Of a stretch of DNA of 64,000 nt, positions 38,930-59,271 are shown piece by piece. Location: contig NZ_CP064653.1 of assembly GCF_015711015.1 (NCBI RefSeq), positions 2,542,001-2,606,000 on the forward strand, read 5' to 3'. This stretch comes from Methylomonas sp. LL1. Lineage in GTDB: Bacteria > Pseudomonadota > Gammaproteobacteria > Methylococcales > Methylomonadaceae. Within the stretch, counting starts at the first letter, position 1; the number at the start of each line of letters is the position of its first letter. The position numbers were made by a program, and so were the translations under genes. The notes beneath the pieces were generated by a model that worked only from the letters and a program-made list of their open reading frames with translations, ran no database searches and was not told the origin of the DNA.

Positions 38930-38959
38930 CTGTGTGTCCGGAAAAGTGTTGACACATCA

Positions 38960-39332
38960 TCTGGAGGCATTTTCAAAAGGCGAGGATAAGTGGAAATCAC
39001 TTAAATTCGCAGCGTCACAGTCTTATCCTGGATTTGAACAAGTTACTGAAATTTGGGCGAATCAGCGTGTAAATGCCGTATCAGACAAACTCACTCCGAG
39101 CCAACAAGCCTACTACAAAGCGGCAATGTTTGAGGCGTTTGCTGGTTTTGATGTTCGTGGTGCAAATAGTGGAATACTTGACAAGCTCAAACAGAGATTG
39201 ATTATTGAAGACGGTGACAAAGTTGGTGGCGATATCGCGAAATTGCTGATTCAGGCTGCGGGGCAAAATAGGATGGACTTGGTTAACCAAGTTGGTAACT
39301 ACAATCGGTCAATGGGGCGGATAAATTATTAG
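38960..39332 (+). pseudogene. 3' stump of a second traG gene
   Basis: About 123 codons remain after the IS. The text matches the C-terminus of the intact TraG at 52580 position by position: QSYPGFEQVTEIWANQRVN against QSYSGFKDASEVWADQRVN, LTPSQQAYYKAAMFEAFAG against LTPGQQAYYRAAMFEAFAG, and a shared end GRINY. The 5' part is missing, replaced by IS copy B. It is a relic of another conjugative element of the same family, diverged from the intact one. Confidence 0.88.
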
Positions 39333-39335
39333 GTA

Positions 39336-39938
39336 TTAACGCGATGGGCTCAGCAATTGTAGTGCTCCAACGATTAAGCCACGAAGAACTAAAATTAAAA
39401 AAAATATCCCGATGTATCCAATCATATCGTCACGGAGATACATGGTTGTTATGGATAACATGACGATCAGGAGCCAATAGTACTTACTATCATGGGAAAA
39501 TTTTACAGCTAAGAATTCGATACCCTGAAAAAGAATTTCGGCCAACAAGGCTGCACCGAATAGAGCTACACCAAAAAATGCGATGAGACTTAGTTGTCCT
39601 GACATGCTGATCTGGTCACTGATCAGCCAAAGTAAAGAGAATCCAAGGGCAATTATGAACAGTTTATTCAGAATTGCCGTTGTCAATCTAGGGCTTTGAA
39701 AGCGCGATAGCAGCTTCTGAAATCCCCCCGGAAACCGCGCAAACGTCGCACCACAAAATGGGCAAATCGATTTTGTTGGTTGTCCGTAATAGGTAATGAC
39801 GCGCGGCACCATGATCCGGTGGCATTCAGGACAATCCACCGTTGCATGATGGCCATTAAACATCGAGTGATTTGACCGGGTTTGAATCGACTGGCTGGGT
39901 CGTTTGAACCGATCTGAGAGTGATGACTGTGTCGGCAT
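39336..39938 (-). CDS. zinc-ribbon membrane protein, candidate entry-exclusion factor (relic locus)
   Basis: 200 residues from the ATG at 39938, chosen because GGAG lies 6-7 nt upstream. Residues 36-62 form a zinc ribbon (CPEC and CPFC pairs). The rest has about four membrane helices. It is homologous along its whole length to the protein at 51998-52576: GHHATVDCPECHRIMVPRV against GHHATVICNECNRSMVPRV, and RDDM against RDDL near the C-terminus. In both places the gene is convergent with a traG 3' end, stops 3 bp apart. By analogy with Eex/TraG of SXT it may block entry of related elements. The function is inferred from context only. Confidence 0.7.
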   Translation of the reverse strand: MPTQSSLSDRFKRPSQSIQTRSNHSMFNGHHATVDCPECHRIMVPRVITYYGQPTKSICPFCGATFARFPGGFQKLLSRFQSPRLTTAILNKLFIIALGFSLLWLISDQISMSGQLSLIAFFGVALFGAALLAEILFQGIEFLAVKFSHDSKYYWLLIVMLSITTMYLRDDMIGYIGIFFLILVLRGLIVGALQLLSPSR

Positions 39939-40059
39939 AGTGTTCTCCATGCTTAAAACGTTTTGATAATCCTACCGCGAATGAACTAACACTCCAAGTC
40001 GGTTTTAAATCAAAGCCATTTTCATAAGGCAAAGAAAATTAGCCTGAATATCGATTCGA

Positions 40060-40548: not shown

Positions 40549-40554
40549 CCGCGA

Positions 40555-40899: not shown

Positions 40900-40929
40900 A
40901 GTCTGATTACATAGGAAGATTGGGTAGGT

Positions 40930-40941
40930 GGATTATAATCC
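40930..40941 (-). promoter_or_regulatory. palindromic operator / -10 box of the toxin-antitoxin operon
   Basis: GGATTATAATCC is a perfect 12-bp palindrome that contains a consensus TATAAT -10 box, about 30 bp upstream of the antitoxin ATG. Antitoxin binding here would block transcription. I see no strong -35 box. Confidence 0.45.
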
Positions 40942-41132
40942 TCTAAATGAAAATTGCTGCATAAAATTGTCTCCCTGGACAATGAATCGACACCCATGCG
41001 GCCACAACAACTTTACTCCGAGGATCAACTACTAGGTGTTGATTATGGTTTTAGAGATTTGGTTTAACACGCACATCTGACAGACCTGCTGGTATTTGCA
41101 ACTGATGTGTCAACACTTTTCCGGACACACAG

Positions 41133-41996
41133 CTAAGCAGCTTTAAGCTGCACTTCGTAGTCAACGGGCGACAGGTAGCCATTGGCGGAATGAAGTCGCT
41201 CGCGGTTATAAAACACTTCGATATATTCGAATACGGCCTGCCTGGCCTCGGATCGGGTTCGATAGGTCTGGTGATGTATCAACTCGGTTTTCAGGGTATG
41301 AAAGAAACTTTCCGAGACGGCATTATCCCAGCAGTTTCCCTTACGACTCATGCTTTGCCGGATGCCGTGTTGCGTTAATAAGGCTCGATGGCTGTCCGAT
41401 GCATATTGGCTGCCGCGATCGGTATGCCATAGCAAGCCTTTCTCGGGCTTGCGCTTCCAAACCGCCATCAGTAGCGCATCGTTCACCAGTTTGGTCCGCA
41501 TATGTTCGGCCATAGACCAGCCCACGACTTGCCGGGAATAGAGATCAATCACCACGGCCAGATACAGCCAGCCCTCCTGCGTATGGATATAGGTGATGTC
41601 GCCGGCATAGACTTGATTGGGCTTTTCCACGGCAAATTGCCGATCCAGGTGATTGGACGCAACCGGTTGATGATGCTTCGAATTCGTCGTGGCTTTGAAT
41701 TTGCGCTTGGTTTTACAGGCCAACCCCGCTTCCCGCATCAAACGACCGATACGGCGGCGGCTGACGGTTCGGTTCTGAGCGGATAAGGCGGCTTTGAGAC
41801 GGCGCGTACCGTAGGTTGCCCGGCTTTTGCCAAAGGTGCTTTGGATCATCTCGGATAGGGCGGCATCGTCTTGTTCGCCCGCAGAGGGGCCTTGCTTCAG
41901 CCAGTCGTAGTAGGCGCTTCGGGATACCCTCATGAACCGGCACAGGGTATCTACCGCAAAGTCCTCTGCATGCTGCTTGATCCAGGCGTACTTCAT
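41133..41996 (-). CDS. IS3-family transposase OrfB (copy C)
   Basis: 287 residues, identical in protein sequence to copy B, with all three DDE residues in their motifs. It overlaps orfA by 4 bp. The identity with copy B points to recent spread or gene conversion. Confidence 0.94.
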
Positions 41997-42289
41997 CTTT
42001 GTTCCTTGGCGAAGTACGCCGCTGCCTTTTTTAGTAAATCGCGCTCCTCGGTCAATCGGGCCACTTCCTTCTTAAGGCGCTTGAGTTCATCGTACAGATG
42101 TTCATCGGTACGGACCGCTTTATTGCTGTCTTTGGGGCGACTGTATTTTCCTATCCAGGTATGCAAGGTATTGACGTTAATGCCAAGATCCTGGGCTACC
42201 TGGCTGATCGGTTTATCGGATTCATTCGCCAACTTGACGGCTGAGGCTCTGAATTCGGCTGTATAGGTATTGGGTTTTTCTTGGCTCAT
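41993..42289 (-). CDS. IS3-family OrfA (copy C)
   Basis: 98 residues, identical in protein sequence to OrfA of copy B. It has the same helix-turn-helix, leucine zipper and slippery A_AAA_AAG site (42026-42032 on the minus strand). This copy should be able to make the OrfAB transposase. Confidence 0.93.
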
Positions 42290-42577: not shown

Positions 42578-44458
42578 TCACAAACACTCAGATAAGGCAT
42601 TGACTGCCATACAATTGTTTTTCTGTGGATAAAGCAGGGAAGCAAGCGATAAGTTAGCCCCTAGCAATAACTCACGTTCTGGCTTGCCAAATGCGTACCC
42701 TTGCCCAAAGTCGACGCCTATTTCTATCAGTTTGCGTGCAATTCCGGGTGACTCGACAAACTCAGCGATAGTTTTTTTGCCGAGTTTGGCAACAATATCT
42801 ACCATCGATCTCACTAAAATCTGATCGGTTTCATCGTTGACCAGATTCCGAATGAATTGCCCGTCGATTTTCACGTAGTCAACCGGAAAAGTTCTTAGAT
42901 AGTTAAAGGAACAAAAGCCAGCGCCAAAATCATCCAGGGCAAACTTGCAGCCTAAGCTTCGTATTTTCTGAATCATCTCTCGGGTTTTTTCAAAGTTATC
43001 GACAGCTGAGGTTTCAGTGATTTCAAAAGTTAATCGACTGGCATCTACCCAGGTTAACTCTAACTTGTCTTGGATTAACTGTAATAAATCGGTATTTTGA
43101 AAAGCGGCGCAGGATAAATTGATCGCCAGTGATATATGTGCTTTATGCGAAGGTAAAGTTGCCAAAAAATTTATTGCATTTTCAACCACCCACAGATCAA
43201 TTACATGAATCAAACCCATGCGTTCGGCAACAGGGATGAAAATACTAGGCGGGATCATCTTTTCGTCCTCGTCTCGCATTCTCAACAGCACTTCATAATG
43301 CGAGATATTGCCGTTATTGAGCTGGACTACAGGTTGGAACACTAAAAACAGATTATTTTCTCGCAAAGCTTTGCGGATGAGGGGCACCCAAGTGATATCG
43401 TGGCGACGTTCCTTGATAACGAGTTCTTCACTGTCGTAGAAGCGTACTTTATCTCGGCCGCAACGTTTAGCGAGATTACACGCTTGGCGTGCATGTAATA
43501 TCATTTCCCCAGGGTGTGGCGTAGCACTATTGCTGTCTAGGGTTGCAATGCCAATTGAGATTGTAATGTTGTAGCAAACATCCCCTTTAAAAAACCTGAA
43601 GTTATCGACAGCAGTTTTAATGCTTTCAGCAAGTATTTGTGCTTGTTTTGGTTTGATGTTATCCAAGAAAAGACAGAATTCATCGGAGCCAAGACGAGAA
43701 AATAAATTAGTCGTCGGAGCCAGTTTTCGTACTAAAACAGTGAGTTCAACCAATAGCTGGTCGCCTACTTCAAAGCCTTCAAGTTCATTAATCAGACTGA
43801 AGCGATCAATATCGATAAATAGCAATGCACCTTCCTTTTGCAATTTGTTACTAAGGTTCAGTGTTATCTTGAGCTGACGTTCAAAACTGCTGCGGTTGTA
43901 CAATCCAGTGAGTTCGTCATGATTGACCAGAAATTTAAGTTTGGCATCATTAACGGTTTTTGACGCCAACTCGGTGATGAGTTGCTCCTCTTGTTTATAT
44001 CGAATTAAACGCTCCTGCTTGAGTCTAATTAAAAAGTTTAGGACCAGCATCAATTCTTGAACATTGATAGGGGAAGCTATTTTATGCGCCAAGTAAGTAT
44101 TCTGTTTGGAAAGCTTTTGACTGTTACTGCAAACTAACTCGCTGCCAGCCGCAGTGTTGCCGTGAATCACAAAAGGTATCACGGAGGAATCGGTGGCCCC
44201 TGAAAGGCTCTGCCACATATCCTCTAATTGGCACTGCGGAAGCTCTGCGTTGATTATAATCGCGCCAATTTTCTCAGGTTGGTCGTAATGAATCTTTAAA
44301 ACGCCATAGAGTTGTTCACCGTTACAAACATGATGAATGTCTGAAAATCCGCTGGTCTTTAGCGTGTCGATTATTTGCTGACTTGATCTCTCAGAGTGAT
44401 CAGCAACAATAATGACTTTTTCTTCGAACGAGTTCCAAGCTTTCATGTGACTTACCAA
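42578..44458 (-). CDS. receiver-like / GGDEF / EAL protein
   Basis: 626 residues. About 1-130: a receiver-like fold (VIIVADHSERSSQQIIDTLK). About 175-340: a diguanylate cyclase domain (FLVNHDELTGLYNRSSFERQ) whose active loop is GSDEF, not GGDEF, so cyclase activity is doubtful. About 365-610: an EAL phosphodiesterase domain with EVLLR at the EAL motif and an intact FALDDFGAGFCSFNYLR loop, so it could hydrolyse c-di-GMP. It lies 4 bp after the CBS-GGDEF-EAL gene, in one operon. The bases 42352-42577 downstream hold no gene. Confidence 0.9.
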   Translation of the reverse strand: MVSHMKAWNSFEEKVIIVADHSERSSQQIIDTLKTSGFSDIHHVCNGEQLYGVLKIHYDQPEKIGAIIINAELPQCQLEDMWQSLSGATDSSVIPFVIHGNTAAGSELVCSNSQKLSKQNTYLAHKIASPINVQELMLVLNFLIRLKQERLIRYKQEEQLITELASKTVNDAKLKFLVNHDELTGLYNRSSFERQLKITLNLSNKLQKEGALLFIDIDRFSLINELEGFEVGDQLLVELTVLVRKLAPTTNLFSRLGSDEFCLFLDNIKPKQAQILAESIKTAVDNFRFFKGDVCYNITISIGIATLDSNSATPHPGEMILHARQACNLAKRCGRDKVRFYDSEELVIKERRHDITWVPLIRKALRENNLFLVFQPVVQLNNGNISHYEVLLRMRDEDEKMIPPSIFIPVAERMGLIHVIDLWVVENAINFLATLPSHKAHISLAINLSCAAFQNTDLLQLIQDKLELTWVDASRLTFEITETSAVDNFEKTREMIQKIRSLGCKFALDDFGAGFCSFNYLRTFPVDYVKIDGQFIRNLVNDETDQILVRSMVDIVAKLGKKTIAEFVESPGIARKLIEIGVDFGQGYAFGKPERELLLGANLSLASLLYPQKNNCMAVNALSECL

Positions 44459-44462
44459 TCCC

Positions 44463-46298
44463 TTATCGAGAGGTTTGGATAAATTGCCGATGCCAACCGC
44501 TTAAATCGTCAGGCGTAAGGGGCTTAGCAAAATGATAACCCTGTACTTCATGGCAATGGTGACTCGTGATGCATTCCAATTCATCCCCTGTTTCAACACC
44601 TTCAGCGATGATTTCTAATCCCAAACTGTCTCCCAGTGCAATAATTGCCCGCACAATTGCTTCGTTAGCGGGCGTACTTTTGATATGGCGTATGAAGGAC
44701 TGATCGATCTTGATGCGATTTAATGGGAATTTGCGCAAATAGCTCAGGCTTGAATAACCGGTGCCGAAATCGTCTAACGCCAACTTGACACCCAGTGCCC
44801 GCAGGTCTATCAAGGCTTGTACTGCGAATTCAGCGTGAGTCATCACGACACTTTCCGTTAGTTCCAGCTCAAGATATTGTGGATCGACGCCACTTTCATC
44901 AATGATGCGTTTAACTTGCTCGCAAAAATCACGTTGCTTGAACTGAACGCCGGAGATATTGACAGCCATCCGAAAAGCCGGCAAACCTTGTTCAATCCAG
45001 CTCAAGTGTTGGCGGCAGGCTTCTTTGAGCACCCATTCGCCGATCGGAATAATCAAACCGGTTTCCTCAGCAATAGGGATGAAGGTAGCCGGCGAAACCG
45101 CTCCAAAATGAGGATGTTGCCAGCGTAACAACACTTCTACGCCCACGACCCGTTGTTCAGATAAGAGTATCTGAGGCTGATAAGACAGTGATAACTCACC
45201 ACTATCAAGCGCCATGCGTAATTGTGTTTCCATGCTCATGCGCTCGACTTTGTCATGGTCCATTTCCGCTGTATAAAGCAAATAAGTGTTTCGCCCACGC
45301 TCTTTGGCTTCATACATTGCTGCATCAGCCTTACGGATTAGGCCATCAATGGCTTGGTCATGTTGAGGAAAAAAAGCCATACCCAAACTTGCTGTTATTT
45401 GTATTTCTCGTTCGAAAATGGGCATTGGTTGCCGAAGCTTATCGATCACATTCGATAGCACGATTTCGGCATCTGCTTCGTTTTCAATATTCTGCAAAAT
45501 AATCACAAATTCGTCGCCGCCAAGCCTGGCTACGGTATCGCTTTGGCGAACACAGGAGGAGAGTCGTTCCGCGACGATTATTAATAGACGATCCCCAAAG
45601 CTGTGACCCAACGTGTCGTTGATATACTTGAAACGGTCGAGGTCAACAAAAACCAAGCCCAACATTGTGTGGTTACGCAGCGCATTATGGCAGGCCTGTT
45701 CTAGTCGATCGTTAAATAACAAACGATTCGGCAAGCCTGTTAAATGATCGTAATGAGCCAGCGTATAGAGATCACGCTGTCGGCGGTGGGTAATTTCTTC
45801 CAGTAGAGCATGGCCGGTCGCCATTCCAACATAGATACCTTTATCAACTATGATGAAGCCATTCACCATGTGCTGCATACCAGCATCGATAATAATCTGT
45901 GCAACATCATCAATACTGGCATTAATATCAACAGTAATCGGATTGGAGTCCATTATTTCGATGACACGTTTGTTACGCAGCAGATCGCGGGCAAATGGCT
46001 TGAGAAAAATTTCACTGATTTTCCTTCGATCCAGGATACCAACCGGCGACTGATTCTGATCAACCACCGCTACAGCAAGTAATTCTTCGTGGCGAATAAA
46101 ATGATCCAACACATCGACGCAACGCTCTTTATTCATAACTGGTTCCACATGACGCATCAACCGTCTGACAGTTGATGTCTCGGTATCTGACAAGTCATTG
46201 AGATCGTGATGATGTCTGCGAACTTTTAAGGTAATGTTGAAAGTATTGTCGGGCAAAAACATGGTCATAAATGCATTAACAATTGAGAAATGCCGCAA
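44463..46298 (-). CDS. CBS / GGDEF / EAL c-di-GMP enzyme
   Basis: 611 residues. About 50-170: two CBS motifs (LLAVAVVDQNQSPVGILDRR, VIEIMDSNPITVDINASIDD) that may sense a nucleotide. About 180-345: a GGDEF domain with the full RLGGDEF loop. About 355-605: an EAL domain with EVLLRW and LALDDFGTGYSSLSYLR. Both activities look possible. It is the first gene of an operon with the receiver-type GGDEF/EAL gene 4 bp downstream. It likely tunes c-di-GMP for motility or biofilm. Confidence 0.92.
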   Translation of the reverse strand: MRHFSIVNAFMTMFLPDNTFNITLKVRRHHHDLNDLSDTETSTVRRLMRHVEPVMNKERCVDVLDHFIRHEELLAVAVVDQNQSPVGILDRRKISEIFLKPFARDLLRNKRVIEIMDSNPITVDINASIDDVAQIIIDAGMQHMVNGFIIVDKGIYVGMATGHALLEEITHRRQRDLYTLAHYDHLTGLPNRLLFNDRLEQACHNALRNHTMLGLVFVDLDRFKYINDTLGHSFGDRLLIIVAERLSSCVRQSDTVARLGGDEFVIILQNIENEADAEIVLSNVIDKLRQPMPIFEREIQITASLGMAFFPQHDQAIDGLIRKADAAMYEAKERGRNTYLLYTAEMDHDKVERMSMETQLRMALDSGELSLSYQPQILLSEQRVVGVEVLLRWQHPHFGAVSPATFIPIAEETGLIIPIGEWVLKEACRQHLSWIEQGLPAFRMAVNISGVQFKQRDFCEQVKRIIDESGVDPQYLELELTESVVMTHAEFAVQALIDLRALGVKLALDDFGTGYSSLSYLRKFPLNRIKIDQSFIRHIKSTPANEAIVRAIIALGDSLGLEIIAEGVETGDELECITSHHCHEVQGYHFAKPLTPDDLSGWHRQFIQTSR

Positions 46299-47456: not shown

Positions 47457-48653
47457 ATGTTTACTGACAAATCAATCAAAGGAATTAAGGCAAAACCATC
47501 GGCATATAGACTCTATGAAAAAGGACCCGATAAAGGCTTTGGTGTCAAAGTCACTCCAGCAGGAAGCGTGACCTTTTTTATTCAATATGCAGGCTCAGAT
47601 GGTAAACAAAAGTTTACGAGTCTAGGAAGATATCCATCAGTTACCTTATCTGAGGCTAGGGATAGATGTCGTGAACTGAGGCGGGATATTGATCGAGGAA
47701 TTGACCCTCAAGCCCGCATCGAGCTAAGGCATGGCAGCGTAGCCGATTTGTTTGACTACTACATCAAGCACATGGTTGATTCTGGTAAACGAACCTTCGA
47801 AAAGGTCGAGGCTGATCTCCATTACAACTGTAAAGATATTTTAGACTTACAAGCCAAAGACGTAACTCCTGCCCATATAAGGAAAATACTTTACACAATT
47901 ATTTCACGAGGTTCGAATGTTCAGGCTAATCGAATTCGATCTTACTTAAGAAGGGCCTTTGAATTAGGGGTTTATCACGATAATGATCCAAAAAACCTAT
48001 CAAATGATTTCACCTTTCAAATACAAACCAACCCTGTCGATGCAATTCCAAAAGACACAAGTGCCGAAGTTGCTGGAGAAAGAGCGTTATCATTTGCCGA
48101 AATCAAAATGCTTTGGAACGAAACATGCCTTCATGAGCAATTCCATCTAGCTACAAAATTATTACTCCTATATGGCTGCCGTTCTTGGGAGCTCTGTGGC
48201 GCAATGAAACATGAGTTTGATTTTGATTCCATGATTTGGAGTGCCCCGCCCGAGCGCGTGAAAAACGAACGCTGGTTGATATTGCCTATCACTCCGTTAG
48301 CTAAAAAATTACTTAATGAACTATGGCCATATTCTGGAAACTCTGACTATCTTTTTCCAAGTAGATATAATGAAGAAAAACCGATACATAAAACATCTTT
48401 GGCGCACGCTATTACTCGAATAAGCAGCATCGACACTTTTACACCGAGAGATTTAAGGAGAACAGTAAAAACTCGTATGGGAGAAATTGGCATAGAGAAA
48501 AGCATCAGAGATAGAATACAAAATCATGCTTTAAATGATGTAAGTTCAAAACATTATGATAGATATGATTACTTACAGGAGAAACGAAACGCCTTATTAA
48601 AATGGGAAAACCACCTGATCGAGTTGAATGCATATAAAAATACCTTCAGTTGA
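47457..48653 (+). CDS. int: tyrosine recombinase / ICE integrase
   Basis: 398 residues. N-terminal DUF4102-type arm domain (KGFGVKVTPAGSVTFFIQYA), core-binding domain (about 95-185), catalytic domain with first Arg in LLYGCRSWELCGAM, the TPRDLRRT box, the His in NHALNDVSSKHY and the Tyr in HYDRYDYLQEKR. It would recombine the element at tRNA-Asn. It points away from the attachment site into the element and is convergent with the Fic-like gene 50 bp away. Confidence 0.93.
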   Translation: MFTDKSIKGIKAKPSAYRLYEKGPDKGFGVKVTPAGSVTFFIQYAGSDGKQKFTSLGRYPSVTLSEARDRCRELRRDIDRGIDPQARIELRHGSVADLFDYYIKHMVDSGKRTFEKVEADLHYNCKDILDLQAKDVTPAHIRKILYTIISRGSNVQANRIRSYLRRAFELGVYHDNDPKNLSNDFTFQIQTNPVDAIPKDTSAEVAGERALSFAEIKMLWNETCLHEQFHLATKLLLLYGCRSWELCGAMKHEFDFDSMIWSAPPERVKNERWLILPITPLAKKLLNELWPYSGNSDYLFPSRYNEEKPIHKTSLAHAITRISSIDTFTPRDLRRTVKTRMGEIGIEKSIRDRIQNHALNDVSSKHYDRYDYLQEKRNALLKWENHLIELNAYKNTFS

Positions 48654-48702: not shown

Positions 48703-50109
48703 TCAATCACTGAATTTTATTCCTTTTTCCTGCCATACCGAAAACTCGAGAGGACGCAGCCCAAAACGAATGGCATTTCCCGCATGCAAAGTTTTGAGTT
48801 CGTTTTGTATCAAAATAATGAATTTCTGCTTGTCTTCTGAAGACACAGAATCCGGAATGCCAGCCAAGATCGATGCTTCATCTGTCGCCAGTCCATCTCG
48901 GACAATAGCTCGTATTACTTCGGCCAGTTCGTTTCGATATCGTAATCGAACGATGTCCGGGGGCACGAGCTGCTGCTGTACGGCAACATATTGCTGACAT
49001 GAACGTTCGTAAGCCCAGATGTAGACATCTCTCAACAATTCAATTCGATTCAGCTCATAGACTCCGAGGACCGCATCCACGTAAGCCTGTTGAGGCACAT
49101 CAATAAAGGACAGTGGACAGAGATTGTGTTGAATCAGCGGGATGTTGGCCGCCAACCGCGAAACCCGTTTGTTGACGTCTTCGAAAGGCTGCAAGTAGGG
49201 CAAATGCACCATCAGGAAAAACGATTGTTCAAACGGATCGGCGATTTCCGCCGCCATGGTCATGACAATCCCGAACAACTCTTCAATCCGTTGCGGCATC
49301 GCAATAGGCAAATATACACTGCCCCCAATATCGACCGCCCGATTACGCAGGCGACCACAACTCATCGGGTCCGCCAACAAACCATCCGATAAAAAAGCAT
49401 GTAAGGCAACAATGGTTTCGGCCGTAACGCCGGCATGCTCGGTATCCCGTACCAAATATTCAATGGCCGACTTATGATTGAGGATCATCTGGGTTTCCAT
49501 GACATCCTTACCTTCAGCCGCCTGACCGAATTCAATCAAGCGTTCGGTATCCAGTCGGCTATAGGTATTGCCTTCCAAGCGGGAAGAAGCCCACGAAAGA
49601 TCAATGAGCAAGCGATTCAGAATGTCTCGAGCAAAGGTGCCTGCCGGGGTTTGTTCAGCCGGCGACCGGCCCAAGGCATGTAATTGTTCGCGTAAACCGT
49701 CTGGTAAGTAATAGGTGTTGTTTGGATAATACTGCCCAAGGAAATCGGGCTGGTAGCTGACGGGAGATCGTTGAGTCCGAGGCTGACGAATAAAGAATTT
49801 GATCTCTTCGCCTTCTGACGAAATGGGAATATAGACTTCGCCAACGAATTGCTGCCTTGAATCTTCAATAACCTCGACCGAGACGACACCCTGACGAGGC
49901 TTTGCAATTTTATACTTCAGTGCTCGCCCATCGCCTTCGCAAACAATGCGCCGCTCTGCTACCAATGTGGCCAAACGGCGTTGCAAAGTACGCCCCTTGA
50001 TTTCAAAATCTAGCTGTTGCGCAATGTCTTTCGCACCAATACCTTCAGGATATTGGGCAATCAACTTCTCGACTCGATCCAGCTCTTCTGATGGGACTAT
50101 TTTTGGCAT
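48703..50109 (-). CDS. winged-helix / Fic-domain protein with altered Fic motif
   Basis: 468 residues. About 1-65: a winged helix (EGIGAKDIAQQLDFEIKGRT, LQRRLATLVAERRIV). About 150-370: a Fic domain with SSRLEGNTYSRLDTERLIEF. The active-site loop (about residue 306) reads YLQPFEDVNKRVSRLAANIP, where the standard motif is HPFxxGNGRxxR: the His is Gln and the Gly-Asn-Gly is Val-Asn-Lys. AMP transfer is therefore doubtful; a regulatory or non-canonical role is more likely. It is divergent from the transglycosylase/FlhDC-like operon. Confidence 0.85.
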   Translation of the reverse strand: MPKIVPSEELDRVEKLIAQYPEGIGAKDIAQQLDFEIKGRTLQRRLATLVAERRIVCEGDGRALKYKIAKPRQGVVSVEVIEDSRQQFVGEVYIPISSEGEEIKFFIRQPRTQRSPVSYQPDFLGQYYPNNTYYLPDGLREQLHALGRSPAEQTPAGTFARDILNRLLIDLSWASSRLEGNTYSRLDTERLIEFGQAAEGKDVMETQMILNHKSAIEYLVRDTEHAGVTAETIVALHAFLSDGLLADPMSCGRLRNRAVDIGGSVYLPIAMPQRIEELFGIVMTMAAEIADPFEQSFFLMVHLPYLQPFEDVNKRVSRLAANIPLIQHNLCPLSFIDVPQQAYVDAVLGVYELNRIELLRDVYIWAYERSCQQYVAVQQQLVPPDIVRLRYRNELAEVIRAIVRDGLATDEASILAGIPDSVSSEDKQKFIILIQNELKTLHAGNAIRFGLRPLEFSVWQEKGIKFSD

Positions 50110-50385
50110 GATTTGATTTTTGGTGTCGCGATTGACTTTATTGTGCCATTTAATATGTCACCAAACCAAAAATCGCGCCATAAAAACATTCTTGGCGGTA
50201 CACATAAACCTCAGCCACCATCTGCCCCCCAAGTCATCACATTCCTTCCGATCATAAGATCAAGTAAAAAAGCGGGGCAAAACTCAGAGGATCGGCGAAA
50301 AACAGCTAAAAGAGAGGTTTTTCGAACATATAGAATTTTTGTCAACATCGTAAACTCGCTTCAAGACCAAAACGGTGAGCTGACG

Positions 50386-51042
50386 ATGTTCATTATTCAC
50401 ATAAAAAATCAAGAGTTTAACCCCCCTGGCATTTCAATCCAAATCCCTATTAAGCACCTTTGGATTGGCTTGATCGGCGGCCTTTGCATCATCAGCCAAC
50501 CCATGGAATCAATGGCTGCTGATTCCATTCAAGCGAATGGCAACAGCCTACACTCCCCGGCATCTAAAGCTAAATTACAAAACACGCTGTGGGGCCGAGT
50601 AGCTCGTAGACATCGCATTGACCCCTATATTCTGTATGCCGTTGCGCTCACGGAGTCGCGAAAAAACGGTGAACAGAATCGTGTCATGCCCTGGCCCTGG
50701 GCCATCAATAACGCCGGCAACTCCTTTATTCCTAACAGTCAGCAGGAGGCAGAAGCTTTACTCAATCAAATGCTGGACCAAGGCAAACGCAATATCGACG
50801 TCGGCATCATGCAAGTGAATCTGCGATGGCATGGCCATCGCGTTGCAAAACCCGAGCTTCTCTTGATCCCGAGCACCAATCTCGAAATCGGCGCGAGTGT
50901 ACTCTCAGAGGCCATCCAATCGGTACCTGGCAATCTTGCTCATGGCATAGGGCGATATTACAGTTGGAAAAACGAGCCGGCAGCTATCCAGTACGGGCAA
51001 AAAGTGATTGCCTTGGCCGATCAAATCCGTGCAATTCTTTAG
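50386..51042 (+). CDS. lytic transglycosylase (Slt-like) of the ICE
   Basis: 218 residues from the ATG at 50386, which has a GGTGAG ribosome site and leads into a membrane/signal segment (HLWIGLIGGLCIISQ). The frame is open from 50113 but the extra N-terminus looks non-coding. The domain has the transglycosylase core: RRHRIDPYILYAVALTESRK with the catalytic Glu, DVGIMQVNLRWHGH, and IGRYYSWKN. It opens peptidoglycan for the transfer apparatus. It is 18 bp upstream of the FlhD-like gene. Confidence 0.85.
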   Translation: MFIIHIKNQEFNPPGISIQIPIKHLWIGLIGGLCIISQPMESMAADSIQANGNSLHSPASKAKLQNTLWGRVARRHRIDPYILYAVALTESRKNGEQNRVMPWPWAINNAGNSFIPNSQQEAEALLNQMLDQGKRNIDVGIMQVNLRWHGHRVAKPELLLIPSTNLEIGASVLSEAIQSVPGNLAHGIGRYYSWKNEPAAIQYGQKVIALADQIRAIL

Positions 51043-51060: not shown

Positions 51061-51372
51061 ATGGATGAGAATCTCTACAAACTGAATCTCGACTACCTCA
51101 TCGTCGCTCAATCCTTAATTTTTTCCGAAAGCGAACAGAAAGCTATGTTCTGCCTCGGCTTAACGGCAGACGCGGTTTCATTGCTCAGAAAGATGCCACT
51201 CGAACGACTGAAGAGCCTGGCACGAAGCGATTGCCTGACCTTTATTCCCCGATTCAATCCCCACAAATGGAGCGAATTCCTAAACACCCCAAAAGCCGAA
51301 GTCCCGGATGTACTCGACGCACGAGCCATCGATCTACTGATGCTTTTGTCCGCCCACCCTCCAGAGTCATGA
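51061..51372 (+). CDS. FlhD-like transcriptional activator subunit (SetD/AcaD-type)
   Basis: 103 residues. LYKLNLDYLIVAQSLIFSES and KAMFCLGLTADAVSLLRKMP match the FlhD pattern (E. coli: LNLSYLLLAQRLI, MFRLGI), and LARSDCLTFIPRF fits its C-terminal half. In SXT and IncA/C elements FlhDC homologues (SetCD, AcaCD) switch on all transfer genes; the partner gene follows here with a 4-bp overlap. I infer this is the master activator of the ICE. Confidence 0.82.
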   Translation: MDENLYKLNLDYLIVAQSLIFSESEQKAMFCLGLTADAVSLLRKMPLERLKSLARSDCLTFIPRFNPHKWSEFLNTPKAEVPDVLDARAIDLLMLLSAHPPES

Positions 51373-51920
51373 GTAGTCATTGCGCCTTTGCTGCTCGGCT
51401 CAATGATCAGTATTGGGCCTATCAATTACTGAGACGAAAGTTGCGTACAAAATTGGCCAGCCGGGCCATCAAAACCCTACGCCCCAAAGACTTGTGTAAC
51501 CTTTATTTTTCGCTGCACCGAGAAAGTCCAGTATCTGGGCTAGTTCCCAGCATTACGTCGCTACCGCAAGCGCGCGAGTCGTTTCTGTACATGGCCCTAT
51601 TTGCTTCAATCTATCGAAGCGCTTGTCGGGGCGACATCAGAGCGGAAATAGACCTGAACGCCATTGTCTTTGCCTGGGATTATTTTTGTACCCTCTATCC
51701 AAACCATATTAAGGAACGTCGGCCGTTTGGCCGCATACGGCCTGCAAATTTCGATGAAGCCTGGATTATCACCGAAGCACTGAAAGACGGACTCGCTGAA
51801 CTACCTTATTGTACAAGCTGCCATTTGCCCTATTTGGTTATTCATGGCTGTAAATACCAGCAGGTCTGTCAAATGTGCGTGCTAAACCAGATGCCTAGAT
51901 CCAGATACATCATTGACTAA
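51369..51920 (+). CDS. FlhC-like transcriptional activator subunit (SetC/AcaC-type)
   Basis: 183 residues from the ATG at 51369 inside the FlhD-like stop (ATGA). It follows FlhC block for block: SRAIKTLRPKDLCNLYFSLH, SPVSGLVPSITSL, IVFAWDYFCTLYP, FDEAWIITEALKDGLAELPY, and a zinc site with Cys148, Cys151, Cys167 and Cys170 (CTSC ... CQMC). It would form an FlhD/FlhC-type complex that binds transfer promoters. A longer reading from 51231 is in frame but overlaps the FlhD-like gene and is unlikely. Confidence 0.85.
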   Translation: MSSHCAFAARLNDQYWAYQLLRRKLRTKLASRAIKTLRPKDLCNLYFSLHRESPVSGLVPSITSLPQARESFLYMALFASIYRSACRGDIRAEIDLNAIVFAWDYFCTLYPNHIKERRPFGRIRPANFDEAWIITEALKDGLAELPYCTSCHLPYLVIHGCKYQQVCQMCVLNQMPRSRYIID

Positions 51921-51997: not shown

Positions 51998-52576
51998 ATG
52001 GCGACATTCTCATCCCAATTAAGCCGAAAAGACACTTCCAATCCCTCAGTCTTTGCCGGACATCATGCTACAGTGATTTGCAACGAATGCAACCGATCCA
52101 TGGTGCCGAGAGTAGTCGTTTACTATGGCAGACCAACCAAGTCGGTTTGCCCTTTCTGCGGCGCAGCGTTTACGCGGTTTCCGAGCGGACTACAGCAATT
52201 TTCACAACGGTTTTCCCAAAAAATTGTTTCATTCGCTGCTTTTAAACGAATAGCTTTGGTCGCCGCTGGCTTTAGTTTGATTTGGCTTCTTGCAACGATG
52301 GAAATACTGCCTAGCGAGATGGAAGCCCTTGGGATTTTCGGTAGCATCATTTTCAGCGCTTTCGGCCTAACTGAACTTTTTTATCAAACTATCGAATTCA
52401 TTGCGGAACAGTTATCGCACAACAGTAACTATTATTGGTCGGCTATAGCTTTGATCGTAATTCTGATTCAGTATGTTAGAGATGATCTAACTCGTTACGT
52501 CGTGATGGCTTCCTTCCTGATGATAGTTCGATGGATACTAGCCGGTTTTGCAGCCGCTAGAAATTATTCTCAGTAA
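51998..52576 (+). CDS. zinc-ribbon membrane protein, candidate entry-exclusion factor
   Basis: 192 residues; GGAG is 7 nt before the ATG. Residues 28-54 hold a zinc ribbon (Cys28, Cys31, Cys51, Cys54: CNEC ... CPFC). About four membrane helices follow (FKRIALVAAGFSLIWLLATM, ALGIFGSIIFSAFGL, YYWSAIALIVILIQYV, YVVMASFLMIVRWILAGF). It is convergent with traG, its stop 3 bp from the traG stop. A homologue in the same arrangement sits at 39336. In SXT the exclusion gene eex adjoins traG and its product recognises TraG; I propose the same role here. No direct family match supports it. Confidence 0.7.
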   Translation: MATFSSQLSRKDTSNPSVFAGHHATVICNECNRSMVPRVVVYYGRPTKSVCPFCGAAFTRFPSGLQQFSQRFSQKIVSFAAFKRIALVAAGFSLIWLLATMEILPSEMEALGIFGSIIFSAFGLTELFYQTIEFIAEQLSHNSNYYWSAIALIVILIQYVRDDLTRYVVMASFLMIVRWILAGFAAARNYSQ

Positions 52577-52579
52577 AAG

Positions 52580-55500
52580 TTAATAGTTTATGCGGCCTCG
52601 CGCCCGATTGTAATTCCCAATCTGGTCAATCAGATCCATGCGGCCTTGACCAGCTGCACTTTTAAGTAGCTTGGCGATATCATTACCTTCGACACTGCCT
52701 TCCTCTTCTATTAACTGGCTTCTTGCAATACCAAGGGTACCGCCATATTCGCCAGCAACGGCAATTCCTGCAAACGCTTCAAACATGGCAGCTCGATAAT
52801 AAGCCTGCTGACCTGGAGTCAACCTATCTGCAACTTCGTTTACTCTCTGATCTGCCCATACTTCCGAGGCGTCTTTAAAACCGGAATACGACTGGTTTGA
52901 CGCATACTTTATCGAATCCCAAATACTCATCCCTTTTGCCTGACCCTGTTGTACAAACTCAGCAAACTCTCGGATATGTTGATTGCTAACGGAGCCCACA
53001 GCTTCCAGATTCTTCGCTGAGTTGTAAAGGCCACCACCCAAATAATCAAACGACGCCTCAGCTACCGAAGGCGTTTCATTGGCCGCTGCCGCAATCGATT
53101 TCCTAAAGTGCTCCGCTTTGACATTCGCCAATTGACCGAAACCTTCTCTTGAGTTTTGTTCACGCTCTGCCAGATTACGATCATGGTGTGCTTCGACACG
53201 GGCTTCGCCTCCGGAAATTTTTCCCGTCGCTGAACCAATCTGTGCCTGTGCACGCTGATTCAACGGTTCAGTTTCAGCGTGCGGATCGTTGAGATGAGCC
53301 TGTTCGACTAATGCCTGAACCTTGCCAGTTTCCGGTACATTGGCTTTCAGCGATTCGTTCCTACTGGCATCCCAGGTTTGATCGGCTTGCGGCGCATTAA
53401 AGGCATCGCCGAGCAGTTGGTAACCCGAGATTTGCGCCTGGTGCGATTGTTGGTCATCCAGCGTGCGATAACTGGGTGATGAGAATCCGGTCAATAACGA
53501 CATCCCGGCGGCGGCGTAGGCTTGATCGGCATCGCTGATCCAACCTGCCGCTTTCCATTGCGATGCCAGCCGTTGCGTATCGCCCCGCAAGCCGTATTGA
53601 TCCAGCGTCCGATCCAGGCGTTCCATCAGGCCGGGGTCATGGGCGATTTTGTTACCTGTTTCTGCCGAACCGAAACTGGCTTGTGTTCCGAAGCGTTGTT
53701 GGGCCGATAGGGTTTGTTGATAGGATTCGCTGGCGGATACCGCGTCGGCTGCGCTGTGTTGCAACGAGGACAGCGATTGATTTTGTAGCCCCATTGACGC
53801 GACGTTTCGGGTACCGGTTTGCGCATCCATTGCCAGGCTTTTCGCCAACCCGGCTTGATAGCCCTGACTGTCGTTGACGGTTTGGCTGATATCGGCGGCA
53901 ATGGCGTCGGACTTGTCCTGACTGACTTTGAAATCGTTCTGCAAGCGTCCGGAGATTACGCCACTGAGTTGGTCGCTACCCAACTTGGCACCGGCATTGG
54001 CACTGCCGGCCACCAAGGCCGAGAACTGATCGGCGGATATGCCGGTATCGGCATGTTTCTTGGCAAAGGCTTCACCGAACTGACGGTTATAGGCGTCGGT
54101 ATAACTGGAACTGCTGGCAATCTGATTACCCAGCGAACGGCTGTCAAAGGCATCGCTGCTGATGCTGGCCGATTTCATCGCCGTTGACGACACACTGTGC
54201 ATGAAGCTCCTGGTCGCCTGTTCCGAAGCGCTGTAAGCCGACGACACCGCCAAACTCATGTCCTTGCCGGCGGTAAAGGTGGGCAGCACCTTGTCGACAC
54301 CGGTTTGGGTGACTGCCGACAACGGACTGTATTGGTGTTGCGCCTGAGCATTCAAGACCGGCGCCGGGCTGATCACGTCAGGCGTGGCGATCTTTTCATT
54401 TACATAATCGCCACCGTCCATGCGTCCCAGAAAATGGGTCGCCGTCACCGCACCTCGGTAGATCAGCATCAACGTGATCGCTGGCGTGGATGCCGCCAGC
54501 ATGCCGCCAATCGACAGCCATTGCTGCAACTCCATGTCCAACTGGTAAATGCCCATCATCGACGGCAGGTTATAGGTGGCCGTGGTCAGCGCCGCCATCT
54601 TGCCGGCGGCCGACATCTGGATGAACAGATTGATCACCGCCAAAATTGGCATCCATAATTGGATCCACAGCAACATCGAGAAGTAGCCGATATTCATCCG
54701 GATGCCGACATTGCCCAGCATCACCACGAAGGCCATGATCGGGGCAATGGCATAACTCAAGCCTTCGATGAAGGCCATCATGGGCCGTACAATCTTGGCA
54801 AACAGCGTTTGCTCGGCGGCCCATTGGGTATTACGTTGCTGAATCGCTTGCTCGACCATGGCCGCTTTGTTCCAATGCAAGCCGTCCTCATGCCGGCCGA
54901 TCACGCCTTTCTCGAACATTGGCAGGATCGCCGACATCAGCATGTAATCGGCGGCATCGACCACACCGGGCCCTGCCAGCGCATCAAAGGCATCCTGGAT
55001 TTTCGGCACCGTGTCACCTGCTGCCGGCACAGCCAACGTCGGTTGCAACAACCCTTCCAGCGCCGTCGCGAAATTGCCATTGGCCACCACGCTCAAATCG
55101 GCCCAGGCATCCGTGCAGGTTTTGGTTTGTGGTTGGCCGCCGACATAGATTTGGGTCATGTAGATGTCGGAATCAAACCTTATCGCATTCAACGGATCGG
55201 CATCGCGCAAGATGGCATCTACTGATTTCTGGTTTAGATCGACACCGGTTAAGGTGCATTCGCGCACGTAATTGGCAAATGAGGTTTCCATATCGCTGCC
55301 AGCATTCGGCACATTGGCTGCGCCTAGATTGATCCGCGACAACAGATTCTTCCGTACCGCCGTCAAAGTCTGCAAACTGTCGGCAAAGCCATTGCCGGTC
55401 ATCGACGGTGTACCAAAGCCTTGTTCGAACAGTCTTGTGGTTCGATAACCCATATTCGACATTACACTACCCACGACCGCCGGACCCAGGGGCACATTGT

Positions 55501-55783
55501 CGACCACCACGACGCTGCCAGTATAGGCATCCTCGATCGACACCCGCACCGACGGCGCATACAACATCAGCCACAACACGTAGGCCAGCAATAAATCCTG
55601 ATAACGAATGCCGCGGCCATCCCATTGCAACAACGCTCTGAGCATGACGATGATGACGCCGATCAAACCACCGACGGCTGCGGCGGTCCGGTAATCGCCA
55701 GTCCCGGAGATCATCGCGATGGCATTCAGTACAGCTTGCAAATAGGCGGAATCGCCCACGGAGAAGATTTCAAACATGGGCAA
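52580..55783 (-). CDS. traG: conjugative transfer protein TraG
   Basis: 1067 residues, the size of F/SXT-type TraG. The N-terminal 450 or so residues are the TraG_N domain with several membrane helices (AAVGGLIGVIIVMLRALLQW, LLLAYVLWLMLYAPSV, YAIAPIMAFVVMLGNVGI, LLWIQLWMPILAVINLFIQM). The rest is a long hydrophilic Ser/Gln/Ala-rich domain ending GRINY. TraG acts in mating-pair stabilisation and is the target recognised by exclusion proteins. It lies downstream of traH and traF on the same strand. Confidence 0.93.
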   Translation of the reverse strand: MPMFEIFSVGDSAYLQAVLNAIAMISGTGDYRTAAAVGGLIGVIIVMLRALLQWDGRGIRYQDLLLAYVLWLMLYAPSVRVSIEDAYTGSVVVVDNVPLGPAVVGSVMSNMGYRTTRLFEQGFGTPSMTGNGFADSLQTLTAVRKNLLSRINLGAANVPNAGSDMETSFANYVRECTLTGVDLNQKSVDAILRDADPLNAIRFDSDIYMTQIYVGGQPQTKTCTDAWADLSVVANGNFATALEGLLQPTLAVPAAGDTVPKIQDAFDALAGPGVVDAADYMLMSAILPMFEKGVIGRHEDGLHWNKAAMVEQAIQQRNTQWAAEQTLFAKIVRPMMAFIEGLSYAIAPIMAFVVMLGNVGIRMNIGYFSMLLWIQLWMPILAVINLFIQMSAAGKMAALTTATYNLPSMMGIYQLDMELQQWLSIGGMLAASTPAITLMLIYRGAVTATHFLGRMDGGDYVNEKIATPDVISPAPVLNAQAQHQYSPLSAVTQTGVDKVLPTFTAGKDMSLAVSSAYSASEQATRSFMHSVSSTAMKSASISSDAFDSRSLGNQIASSSSYTDAYNRQFGEAFAKKHADTGISADQFSALVAGSANAGAKLGSDQLSGVISGRLQNDFKVSQDKSDAIAADISQTVNDSQGYQAGLAKSLAMDAQTGTRNVASMGLQNQSLSSLQHSAADAVSASESYQQTLSAQQRFGTQASFGSAETGNKIAHDPGLMERLDRTLDQYGLRGDTQRLASQWKAAGWISDADQAYAAAGMSLLTGFSSPSYRTLDDQQSHQAQISGYQLLGDAFNAPQADQTWDASRNESLKANVPETGKVQALVEQAHLNDPHAETEPLNQRAQAQIGSATGKISGGEARVEAHHDRNLAEREQNSREGFGQLANVKAEHFRKSIAAAANETPSVAEASFDYLGGGLYNSAKNLEAVGSVSNQHIREFAEFVQQGQAKGMSIWDSIKYASNQSYSGFKDASEVWADQRVNEVADRLTPGQQAYYRAAMFEAFAGIAVAGEYGGTLGIARSQLIEEEGSVEGNDIAKLLKSAAGQGRMDLIDQIGNYNRARGRINY

Positions 55784-55838: not shown

Positions 55839-57290
55839 TTAAGGACTTGGCCAAGCCGCCCCGGAAGCCGGCAATTGCGCCACGGTACCGTAGTGTTTAG
55901 GCTTCACGGTGGTCATCAATTGCTGGTAAAACGCCATCAGGGTTTGCGGATTGCCATAGCGTCCGGCGATGGTGACGTATTCGTCCTGGATTTGCTCTCT
56001 AGCATCTTTCAGAGCATCCATCAGCAACTTGGCGTAGGCGTGGTCATTCATGTGTGCTGCGGTTTGCACGGCATTCAGCAAATCATTGACGATCAATTGC
56101 GCCAGTTCCAAGGCAATCACAGGGGCCGCTTCTTCGGCCCACAGCTTGGCAATGCCGGCATCTTCTCGTGCCAGGTTATGAATCATGCCGCCGATGGCAT
56201 CCGGCACGGTTTGCATGAAGGCTTTTTCGCTATCGGTGATTTGACCGCTGTTGGTCGAGAATTTGTAAATCAAGCCGTTGCCGGTATTAGCCGAACCCAA
56301 CAGGATTTCCATCACCCGCTGTTTCAAGCCCACCAGATTGACGTTTTGGACAATGGGTTTCAAACACTGATCGGCATCATGGCCATCCGAACAGGTGTAC
56401 ATCCTGACGGTTTGATAACTGTTGCCGGCGTCGTTGCCGTACATCAAATCCTTGATCCGCAACACCGGAGGCGGCGCGCTGATGGCATTGTTCTCGCCTT
56501 TGCCGTCGGGCGCGGCTTGCGGGGCATCGACGATCACGGTACCAGAAATACTCATCGCCGCTTCCAGCAAACTGTTGCCGCCGAAACGAAACCAGCCGCC
56601 GGCATTTTGATTGACCAAAGCCCGCCAGACCAGATTACCCTGAATGATCTTGGTCATATCGGTCGGGTCGTTCTGCTTGATCTGCTGTACCGGATCACCC
56701 AAAGTACTGGTATTGGTCCAACTGGAAAACACATCAGAAATACCTTGGGTAAACGAGGCATTGGACAGATTGGTCTTGCTTTGTAGGTCGAAGGCTTTGA
56801 CCGTGTCGTTGACCAAACCCTGAGCTAATCGGCAGGAGTTACTGAACATCTGGTTCATCTCCTGGATTTTCTTTTGCAGGTCGGTCATCACCGACGCACA
56901 CCAGGGACACATGGCACCGACCGCCAACTGAAACGCATAGCCCGCCGCATTGCCGGCCACGTTACGCATCAATTGCACGAACTGGTTAAAGTTGATGAAA
57001 CTGAAACTGCCAGCGAACAAATCGATACCGCCGCAGCCGGCGCTGAATGAAGGCGGCACGAACGAGACCAGATTGGTGTTGGTGATGCCATTGCGCGCCA
57101 CCAGGCTGCCGCCGGTAATCACGCCGCGGCGCTGCCCCAAATGCGCGGTTGGGGCCGTGAAATTGGTCATGGTGCCGAACATGCTGTCCATTTCCTGCTG
57201 TAGGTCGGCATAGGCTGGAACGGAACTCTCGACCAACAGAATCAACACCAGCACCTGGCGATAGCGCAAAGACAATGAAAACGAAATCAT
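55839..57290 (-). CDS. traH: conjugative pilus assembly protein TraH
   Basis: 483 residues with a signal peptide cut after VPAYA (about residue 28). The block CGGIDLFAGSFSFINFNQFV is the TraH signature, followed by AMCPWCASVMTDLQKKIQEM. The protein is periplasmic or outer-membrane associated and needed for pilus assembly in F-like type IV secretion. Its start overlaps the traF stop by 4 bp, and traG follows after 55 bp. Confidence 0.93.
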   Translation of the reverse strand: MISFSLSLRYRQVLVLILLVESSVPAYADLQQEMDSMFGTMTNFTAPTAHLGQRRGVITGGSLVARNGITNTNLVSFVPPSFSAGCGGIDLFAGSFSFINFNQFVQLMRNVAGNAAGYAFQLAVGAMCPWCASVMTDLQKKIQEMNQMFSNSCRLAQGLVNDTVKAFDLQSKTNLSNASFTQGISDVFSSWTNTSTLGDPVQQIKQNDPTDMTKIIQGNLVWRALVNQNAGGWFRFGGNSLLEAAMSISGTVIVDAPQAAPDGKGENNAISAPPPVLRIKDLMYGNDAGNSYQTVRMYTCSDGHDADQCLKPIVQNVNLVGLKQRVMEILLGSANTGNGLIYKFSTNSGQITDSEKAFMQTVPDAIGGMIHNLAREDAGIAKLWAEEAAPVIALELAQLIVNDLLNAVQTAAHMNDHAYAKLLMDALKDAREQIQDEYVTIAGRYGNPQTLMAFYQQLMTTVKPKHYGTVAQLPASGAAWPSP

Positions 57291-58297
57291 GGCGTACTCC
57301 CCATTTGCGCACTGCGTTGCAATGCCTGGATCAGTGACAGTGGGTCTTGAGTGACCGCAGGGCTGATGCTACCGGCGGCCGGTAACAGCATCGGCGTATT
57401 ACGAATGCCTTGGGTGGTTTGGTATTGCGAGGCATCGATCCAACCCGATTCCTTGGCAGCCAGTAAAATCCGGCCGGTAACTTCCTCTAACGACAAGGCG
57501 CCTTGCGCCAACGGTACAATTTGCTTCGGTGGTTTCATCAGAAACAGCGCCGGTGTCTGTTCAACCCCCAACATCGCCGCTTGCCCTTGATCGCGTTTGA
57601 ACTGACTGAAAAAGCCGTTCGGCATGGGCAAACCATCCAGCGACACGGGATAGATTTTGAAACCGTAGGCGTTTTCCAGCATCGCCAGAATCGGCGCCTG
57701 CACATGGCAATAAGGGCAATCGGACCGGAAGAAAAACAAAATACCGGCTTGGGCGGCAATCGCCTTCAAGGCGCGTTCGGCCACCACGCTGGCTTGATGA
57801 TTGGCTTCATTGGCCGCATAAGTTGCCACCGGACGGCGCACGGTTTCATCGAGTTGCGGATCGGACATCACCACATAACGAGCGGCGTTGGTGAAGCGCT
57901 CGGCTTTGTCCATCATCACACGCTGCAGGTAATAAAACGCTGCGACATTCTCCTGAGTGGGATCATCAATGGCCTGGTTCAGGTAATGCTCCAGGTTTTG
58001 CTTCAACCAGGCGGAGGACAGTGGTTGGAGTTCTGCAGAAGGCTGGGCTTGAGTTTTGGGTTCAATTTCAGCTTGAACGACGCTGGGCGGTTTGATGTCA
58101 GGCTTCGGTTTGTGCTGATCGGCTTGAATATCGGGTTGGGCTTTTTTAACCGGCTCCGGCAATACCTCATACCAAAACCAGCCGCGTTGTTTGTCGGCGA
58201 AATAGGAAACCTCGGGCGCGTCGTCTTTACCCATTGCCAGCGAGGCTCTGAGACACAAGCTCATGATGATCGGTAAAGAAATGGCGTTTCGGTTCAT
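57287..58297 (-). CDS. traF: conjugative pilus assembly protein TraF (thioredoxin-like)
   Basis: 336 residues with an N-terminal signal peptide. SYFADKQRGWFWYEVLPEP is the TraF opening. The thioredoxin-like domain has LFFFRSDCPYCHVQAPIL with the redox pair Cys194/Cys197, then IYPVSLDGLPMPNGF and a cis-Pro region near VEQTPALFLM. It works with TraH in pilus assembly, probably as an oxidoreductase or chaperone. First gene of traFHG; the divergent gene is mobI-like. Confidence 0.93.
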   Translation of the reverse strand: MNRNAISLPIIMSLCLRASLAMGKDDAPEVSYFADKQRGWFWYEVLPEPVKKAQPDIQADQHKPKPDIKPPSVVQAEIEPKTQAQPSAELQPLSSAWLKQNLEHYLNQAIDDPTQENVAAFYYLQRVMMDKAERFTNAARYVVMSDPQLDETVRRPVATYAANEANHQASVVAERALKAIAAQAGILFFFRSDCPYCHVQAPILAMLENAYGFKIYPVSLDGLPMPNGFFSQFKRDQGQAAMLGVEQTPALFLMKPPKQIVPLAQGALSLEEVTGRILLAAKESGWIDASQYQTTQGIRNTPMLLPAAGSISPAVTQDPLSLIQALQRSAQMGSTP

Positions 58298-58785: not shown

Positions 58786-59271
58786 ATGTCCAGCGAACAA
58801 CCTGTCAACGCACAGCCCACTCTCACCGAACAAGACCTGCTGCATTGGATCGAAACCCGGTGCGATCATCTCCAGGCGCAAGCCAAAGTGCTGGTCGATG
58901 ATTATTGGCGCCAAATGAAAAGCCAGCGCCAGAAACACAGCAAAAGCGAATCGGGTCGAGTTGGCGTCCGCATCCGTTGCCGGGAAAACCAACGCGGTTT
59001 CAGCATCGAGTGGTACCGCATGGCCACATTGCGGCAAAACGGTCAAACCAAGCCAATTGCGCAGTACGTTAAGAAAGGCCGTGGCTATCGCTATCCGCTC
59101 GGCAACCTACTGAAGGGGGAACCCACCTGGGAAGCGGAATTAGTCGAAGAACTGGAAACCGAGTTTGCCCATATTCGGCAACAGCTCGATCGATTGGGAA
59201 AAATTCGTGACGCGGTGCAGCGTTATTGCAGGGTAATTGAAGCCGATGCGAACAACAAATTCATTGGTTGA
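58786..59271 (+). CDS. mobI: MobI-like conjugative transfer protein
   Basis: 161 residues: helical N-terminus (LTEQDLLHWIETRCDHLQAQ), a central beta region (GRVGVRIRCRENQRGFSIEW, YRMATLRQNGQTKPIAQYV), and a C-terminal helix (ELVEELETEFAHIRQQLDRL). Size, layout and position opposite traF agree with MobI, the oriT-binding auxiliary transfer factor of SXT and IncA/C elements. I assign it on recollection of the family and on context, not on a motif I can prove. It follows a palindrome-rich, oriT-like stretch. Confidence 0.55.
   Translation: MSSEQPVNAQPTLTEQDLLHWIETRCDHLQAQAKVLVDDYWRQMKSQRQKHSKSESGRVGVRIRCRENQRGFSIEWYRMATLRQNGQTKPIAQYVKKGRGYRYPLGNLLKGEPTWEAELVEELETEFAHIRQQLDRLGKIRDAVQRYCRVIEADANNKFIG

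Follow-up and report, generated by a model that had tools for sequence, protein, structure and literature searches.

The 64,000-nucleotide stretch of Methylomonas sp. LL1 analyzed here (contig NZ_CP064653.1, positions 2,542,001 to 2,606,000; hereafter the window) carries a gene for a 192-amino-acid protein that converges on traG. This protein is very probably the entry-exclusion protein (Eex) of an SXT/IncC-like integrative conjugative element, with a membrane half matched to the C-terminus of TraG; the assignment to exclusion comes from genomic context and allele variation. The gene keeps a fixed place beside traG, and the facing 3′ ends of the two genes vary in parallel. We refer to it as eex-like and to loci and genomes by L and G numbers.

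The original prediction described a zinc-ribbon protein with about four membrane helices, ending 3 base pairs (bp) from the traG stop on the opposite strand. The open reading frame, the hydrophobic segments and the gap between the two stop codons, which measures 3 bp, all agree with this description. The ribbon follows the pattern CxxC-19-CxxC, and its four cysteines are kept in all 52 aligned homologues. Hydropathy places hydrophobic segments at residues 85-103, 110-128, 139-157 and 168-186, of which the third is weak (1.11). At a stricter cut-off, 28 of the 52 homologues have four such segments behind the ribbon, 23 have three and one has two. An inner-membrane location is thus predicted from three or four segments in 51 of 52 proteins and from the helices of an AlphaFold2 model, in which a beta ribbon precedes four long helices (residues 80-100, 107-139, 143-160 and 162-191). 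This model is of moderate confidence, with a mean predicted local distance difference test score (pLDDT) of 67.8 and a predicted template modelling score of 0.46. The ribbon end probably lies in the cytoplasm. Across 165 residues starting at the ribbon, the window protein is 96% identical to that of L074 and 86% to that of L076, with nonsynonymous over synonymous divergence (dN/dS) of 0.019/0.074 and 0.076/0.306, respectively; ratios near 0.25 in both comparisons indicate that the gene is under constraint. Library scans with the window protein gave nothing convincing (best E 0.029 in Pfam, 0.11 in NCBIfam and 0.029 in PHROGs). Its match to Zn_ribbon_8 is weak (12 bits against a cut-off of 34.4); among 11 family members, six match this profile at E <= 0.1, the best at 0.003. 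The best Pfam match in the scan of these 11 members is DUF6524 (E 0.00076, in two members). A family profile found nothing better than E 0.47 among PDB sequences, and a fold search of the PDB returned no hit at E <= 0.001.

Linkage to traG is without exception among the long homologues. Searching 301 genomes of the order returned 73 matches, of which 52 score at least 228 bits, including three from the window's own genome. All 52 face the 3′ end of traG, with gaps from -11 to +22 bp and a median of 3 bp. This count includes a partial homologue on a short contig (L110) and two with a stop inside the matched stretch (G463 and G542:C3). It omits a match cut by a contig end (G401/L117), an interrupted eex split in two, lying 518 bp from a traG fragment (G449/L118), which is a decayed pair, a remnant without traG (G486/L119) and 17 matches of no more than 41 bits, chiefly to the ribbon. 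In the reverse direction, a traG search keeping at most three candidates per genome, down to E 1e-50, gave at least 50 places at 74% identity or more; 49 of the 50 listed have an eex-like partner, and the remaining one is a fragment at a contig start. More distant traG genes (45-62% identity) show a ribbon match downstream on the facing strand, 0.7-4.6 kilobases (kb) from the aligned end, in 13 of 16 places; the three without one downstream are in G402, G450 and G454. Outside these 16 places are the partial traG genes (47-64%) of G442:C3, G468, G464 (two contigs) and G417:C306 and another 18 places at about 29-34%. For G492 and G493 (traG at about 29-34%), the ribbon match lies downstream of traG on the same strand. 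Among 369 genomes of the wider class, a long homologue occurs in the window's own genome alone; four of the 368 others matched over only 38 to 85 residues, in a sample with few genomes of the family. A plasmid scan matched 12 records, none over 80% of the query, and one scan of viral contigs found no relative. Adjacency to the traG of an F-type transfer system is a feature shared with TraG-directed entry-exclusion proteins.

The strongest evidence is the covariation with TraG. We split the protein into the ribbon (residues 15-66) and the membrane half (67-192 for this comparison) and compared distance matrices. The main set comprises 31 elements whose TraG residues 461-880 are over 88% identical to those of the window, giving 465 pairs, with flhC in reach for 300 and mobI for 406; some elements are near copies of one another, and the pairs are not independent. 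Between the membrane half and TraG 881-1067, r is 0.95 (permutation p = 0.0005, the floor of 2000 shuffles), compared to 0.13 for TraG 1-460, 0.23 for TraG 461-880, 0.20 for traH, 0.15 for traF, 0.11 for mobI, 0.09 for flhC, 0.07 for flhD and 0.06 for slt. Along TraG, the correlation climbs from near residue 900 and is highest at 921-960, and the variable stretch 801-860 reaches only about 0.2; along Eex, it shifts at residues 50-70. Among the 68 pairs whose membrane halves share over 75% identity, TraG tails never fall under 75%, and among the 390 pairs with membrane halves at 55% or less, tails never exceed 80% (highest 79%). The clusterings of Eex and of TraG tails agree with an adjusted Rand index of 0.94. 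For 19 elements with another TraG body, r is 0.81, or 0.73 allowing for TraG 461-880; pooling all 50 elements gives 0.87 and 0.89. The relic described below and L110, without TraG 461-880, were omitted from these two sets. An AlphaFold2 model of the TraG tail was poor (pLDDT 44.9) and was not used. Clustering the membrane halves at 65% identity sorts the 31 elements into 10 groups (6 to 11 across the cut-offs tried) and all 52 into 21 groups (5 to 27), which we regard as candidate exclusion groups defined by sequence. Alleles thus co-segregate with traG alleles, as for TraG-directed entry-exclusion proteins. The zinc ribbon was considered as the recognition part and set aside because its correlation with TraG 881-1067 (r = 0.32) is lower than that with flhC (r = 0.61); with mobI, r is 0.53. 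It is probably not the part that recognizes TraG.

A number of observations weigh against a recognition between Eex and TraG that ends in exclusion. Neighbouring segments are exchanged together, so linkage explains some of the coupling. Carried to its extreme, the facing 3′ ends would be a hypervariable segment of about 1 kb exchanged as one block, with no contact between the proteins. Such hitch-hiking is quite improbable, as the ribbon, which lies closer than the TraG segment to the membrane half, is nonetheless largely uncoupled from it (r = 0.29): ribbons are mismatched (under 75%) in 22 of the 68 like pairs and matched (over 90%) in 38 of the 390 unlike pairs. A nearer segment that is repeatedly uncoupled, next to a membrane half and a TraG tail that stay matched in all but seven pairs, is what would be expected of partners in contact. 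In these seven intermediate pairs, membrane halves of 55-75% identity go with TraG tails of 91-93%, so that one TraG tail cluster holds two Eex clusters, with L084 standing apart from seven others. Permutation also finds significance (p 0.0005-0.001) for the weak correlations, those with TraG 461-880, traH and the ribbon; background relatedness is therefore not nil, and main and weak correlations differ by size, at similar p. TraG 601-640 gives r = 0.06, and the region equivalent to the SXT TraG determinants, which we take to lie near residues 606-608, does not covary here. The window protein also lacks similarity to EexS of SXT/R391 and to the corresponding IncC gene (BLASTP E 3.6 and 5.4). 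Comparison of profiles with these two gave an hhalign probability of 0.3% from shallow profiles, the IncC one being built from four sequences, and homology to the EexS and EexC families was thus not found.

Co-residence points the same way. Exclusion would be expected to make it rare for one genome to hold two elements of a single group, yet same-group pairs make up two of 28 pairs within genomes, compared to 1.6-3.0 expected by shuffling. With no sign of avoidance, co-residence lends no support to exclusion, in a test that is low in power given the many groups and for a process that can leak. G538 even holds two elements (L088 and L109) with identical TraG tails and Eex membrane halves that are 98% identical. 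The same lack of any sign of exclusion would suit a protein that partners TraG in the donor, as an assembly factor or anchor, and covaries with it for a structural reason; covariation alone cannot separate donor-side from recipient-side contact. We nonetheless consider a donor partner improbable, since a role in assembly would not explain why a TraG body that hardly varies comes with about ten allele groups, and since the slot is that of known exclusion genes. In SXT/R391, with the same gene order (E. coli AP022095, L036), it is occupied by the annotated eexS, convergent with traG and 32 bp behind it. EexS (143 amino acids) has four hydrophobic segments like the window protein, but no ribbon in its sequence. 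The IncC plasmid pR148 (L032) has, likewise convergent and 37 bp behind traG, a gene for 120 amino acids annotated as hypothetical; its product has no ribbon either and no similarity to the window protein, and by its place it may be taken as eexC. According to PMC11493245, the IncC eexC is vcrx145, whose number adjoins that of traG (144), and deleting it relieves exclusion, which again speaks against a donor partner.

A convergent eex behind traG is therefore a known layout, occurring in both SXT and IncC. The original prediction of a new type of exclusion factor, with a cytoplasmic zinc ribbon and acting on the TraG C-terminal region, is supported, with qualifications. Homologues mostly unlinked to traG would have refuted it, whereas 52 of 52 long homologues adjoin traG; the covariation with the TraG C-terminal part that it proposed to look for was seen and is strong. 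The membrane half, not the zinc ribbon, tracks TraG, and the convergent place is already known. By sequence, this is a known kind of system in a known slot, with a protein without detectable similarity to known ones. PMC2791158 states that traG and eex trees of SXT/R391 match and define exclusion groups, of which two are described, whereas the 31 elements here form about ten allele groups. The window family also differs from SXT/R391 in the part of TraG that covaries, here the C-terminal ~170 residues. PMC5122569 names P-G-E residues of TraG and says that the C-terminal part of Eex sets specificity. In F-like plasmids, TraS is, according to PMC7690428, an inner-membrane entry-exclusion protein proposed to act on TraG, a further likeness. 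In PMC13381706, the name TraG refers to a coupling protein. Among the papers searched, none mentions entry exclusion together with either a zinc ribbon or a cold-shock domain, and one mentions exclusion, TraG and Methylococcales. We know of no ribbon in TraS of F-like plasmids.

We infer exclusion, the membrane orientation and a physical contact between Eex and TraG, in a mechanism that could run as follows. A recipient that already holds the element would make the protein and place it in the inner membrane, its ribbon end probably cytoplasmic. On docking of a donor that carries the same element, the membrane half would recognize the last ~170 residues of the donor TraG, and this recognition would block DNA entry. 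Elements whose TraG proteins are otherwise similar exchange alleles of the pair, and this would give rise to many exclusion groups. The ribbon may have a shared, non-specific role, either in stability or in acting on a common partner.

Other elements of the order also have ribbon proteins in this slot. The Methylomonas koyamae plasmid pLM6 encodes a 90-amino-acid protein (WP_198402815) with a like ribbon, convergent with traG at 26 bp, but short and, by eye, with a single hydrophobic stretch, unlike the window protein. L143-L146 encode shorter ribbon proteins of 90-124 amino acids at 22-47 bp from traG. Other Methylococcales elements (L120, L123, L127, L147 and L148) have a protein with a ribbon and hydrophobic stretches, convergent with traG at 122-158 bp, but with an extra cold-shock domain before the ribbon and a membrane part that by eye is unlike that of the window protein. 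Among these five, the PF00313 profile was run on L120 and the other four were judged by eye; Pfam confirms the domain in L120, L122 and L126, the last at 3.9 kb from traG. A Burkholderia plasmid has a like protein, with no traG annotated within the stretch examined, and on a Klebsiella plasmid a like protein faces a TraG_N gene at a distance of about 1.2 kb, with small genes in the interval. Across these relatives, the ribbon is a module common to several mobile-element proteins. The combination of a cold-shock domain and the same kind of ribbon was seen on several unrelated mobile elements (L120, L122, L126, L128 and L130). It is conceivable, though we think it unlikely, that the ribbon, preceded by a cold-shock domain in its relatives, is a nucleic-acid-binding module: while the membrane half reads the TraG of the donor, this cytoplasmic module would take hold of either the single strand coming in or a shared host factor and halt it. 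If true, exclusion would combine a swappable recognition half with a conserved acting half.

The surrounding genes (Table 1) follow the SXT/R391/IncC-like order slt-setD-setC-(eex)-traG-traH-traF, with traG, traH and traF on the opposite strand. Window TraG is 39% identical to SXT TraG over residues 3-831. The eex-like gene begins about 80 bp behind flhC, which, as some ribbons bind nucleic acid, could fit a regulator of the slt-flhD-flhC operon that binds DNA through its ribbon. Such a regulator is hardly credible given the predicted membrane helices. In the 37 loci with flhC in reach, moreover, the flhC-to-eex distance is about 80-270 bp in 14 and 1.1-3.0 kb in 23, whereas the place beside traG is constant in all 52. 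The flhC-eex interval (e.g., in L010, L072 and L073) looks like a cargo insertion hotspot. A Fic-domain protein (PF02661) is encoded at 48703-50109, between integrase and slt.

Table 1. Features of the element and of the neighbouring relic, in window coordinates.
Feature	Position	Strand	Details
Candidate entry-exclusion gene (eex-like)	51998..52576	+	192 amino acids
Four-cysteine ribbon, residues 28-54	52079..52159	+	Cys28, 31, 51, 54
Membrane half, residues 61-192	52178..52573	+	part covarying with TraG
traG	52580..55783	-	1067 amino acids; TraG_N domain, PF07916 E 6e-108
TraG residues 900-1067, covarying C-terminal segment	52583..53086	-	peak at 921-960
FlhC-like activator (setC position)	51369..51920	+	PF05280 E 1e-4, 22.6 bits, below cut-off 27; order as in SXT
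FlhD-like activator (setD position)	51061..51372	+	PF05247 E 3.7e-11
Lytic transglycosylase (slt)	50113..51042	+	PF01464 E 2e-6
traH	55839..57290	-	PF06122
traF	57287..58297	-	PF13728, TIGR02740
mobI	58786..59271	+	PF19456
Integrase	47457-48653		PF00589
Second, open eex-like gene, in relic of different element	39336..39950	-	204 amino acids; other allele group
Relic traG 3′ end, remainder missing	38955..39332	+	adjoins insertion sequence

A relic of another element lies at 37773-42289, between two inverted copies of an insertion sequence that is presumably IS3-like. It holds 19 residues that match the end of flhC, a DUF3368/UPF0175 pair that is probably a toxin-antitoxin system, the open eex and the traG tail. 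From the flhC end to the traG tail, the relic is 92% identical to L068 over 2.1 kb, and the two Eex proteins are 95% identical over 165 residues. The window genome thereby holds three eex alleles from three groups. As to selection keeping the relic eex, its dN/dS against L068 is low (0.021/0.204), but so is that of the relic traG tail (0.031/0.169), which leaves the ratio uninformative. Beside the relic, two successive GGDEF-EAL proteins are encoded at 42578-46298.

Entry exclusion determines what conjugative elements may coexist in one cell. This family, found in methane-oxidising bacteria that raise no medical concern, offers about ten naturally occurring allele pairs in a setting where the TraG body hardly varies, and natural exchange has mapped the points of exchange within both genes. 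Together, these allele pairs and exchange points make the recognition between Eex and TraG directly testable by swaps of short segments.

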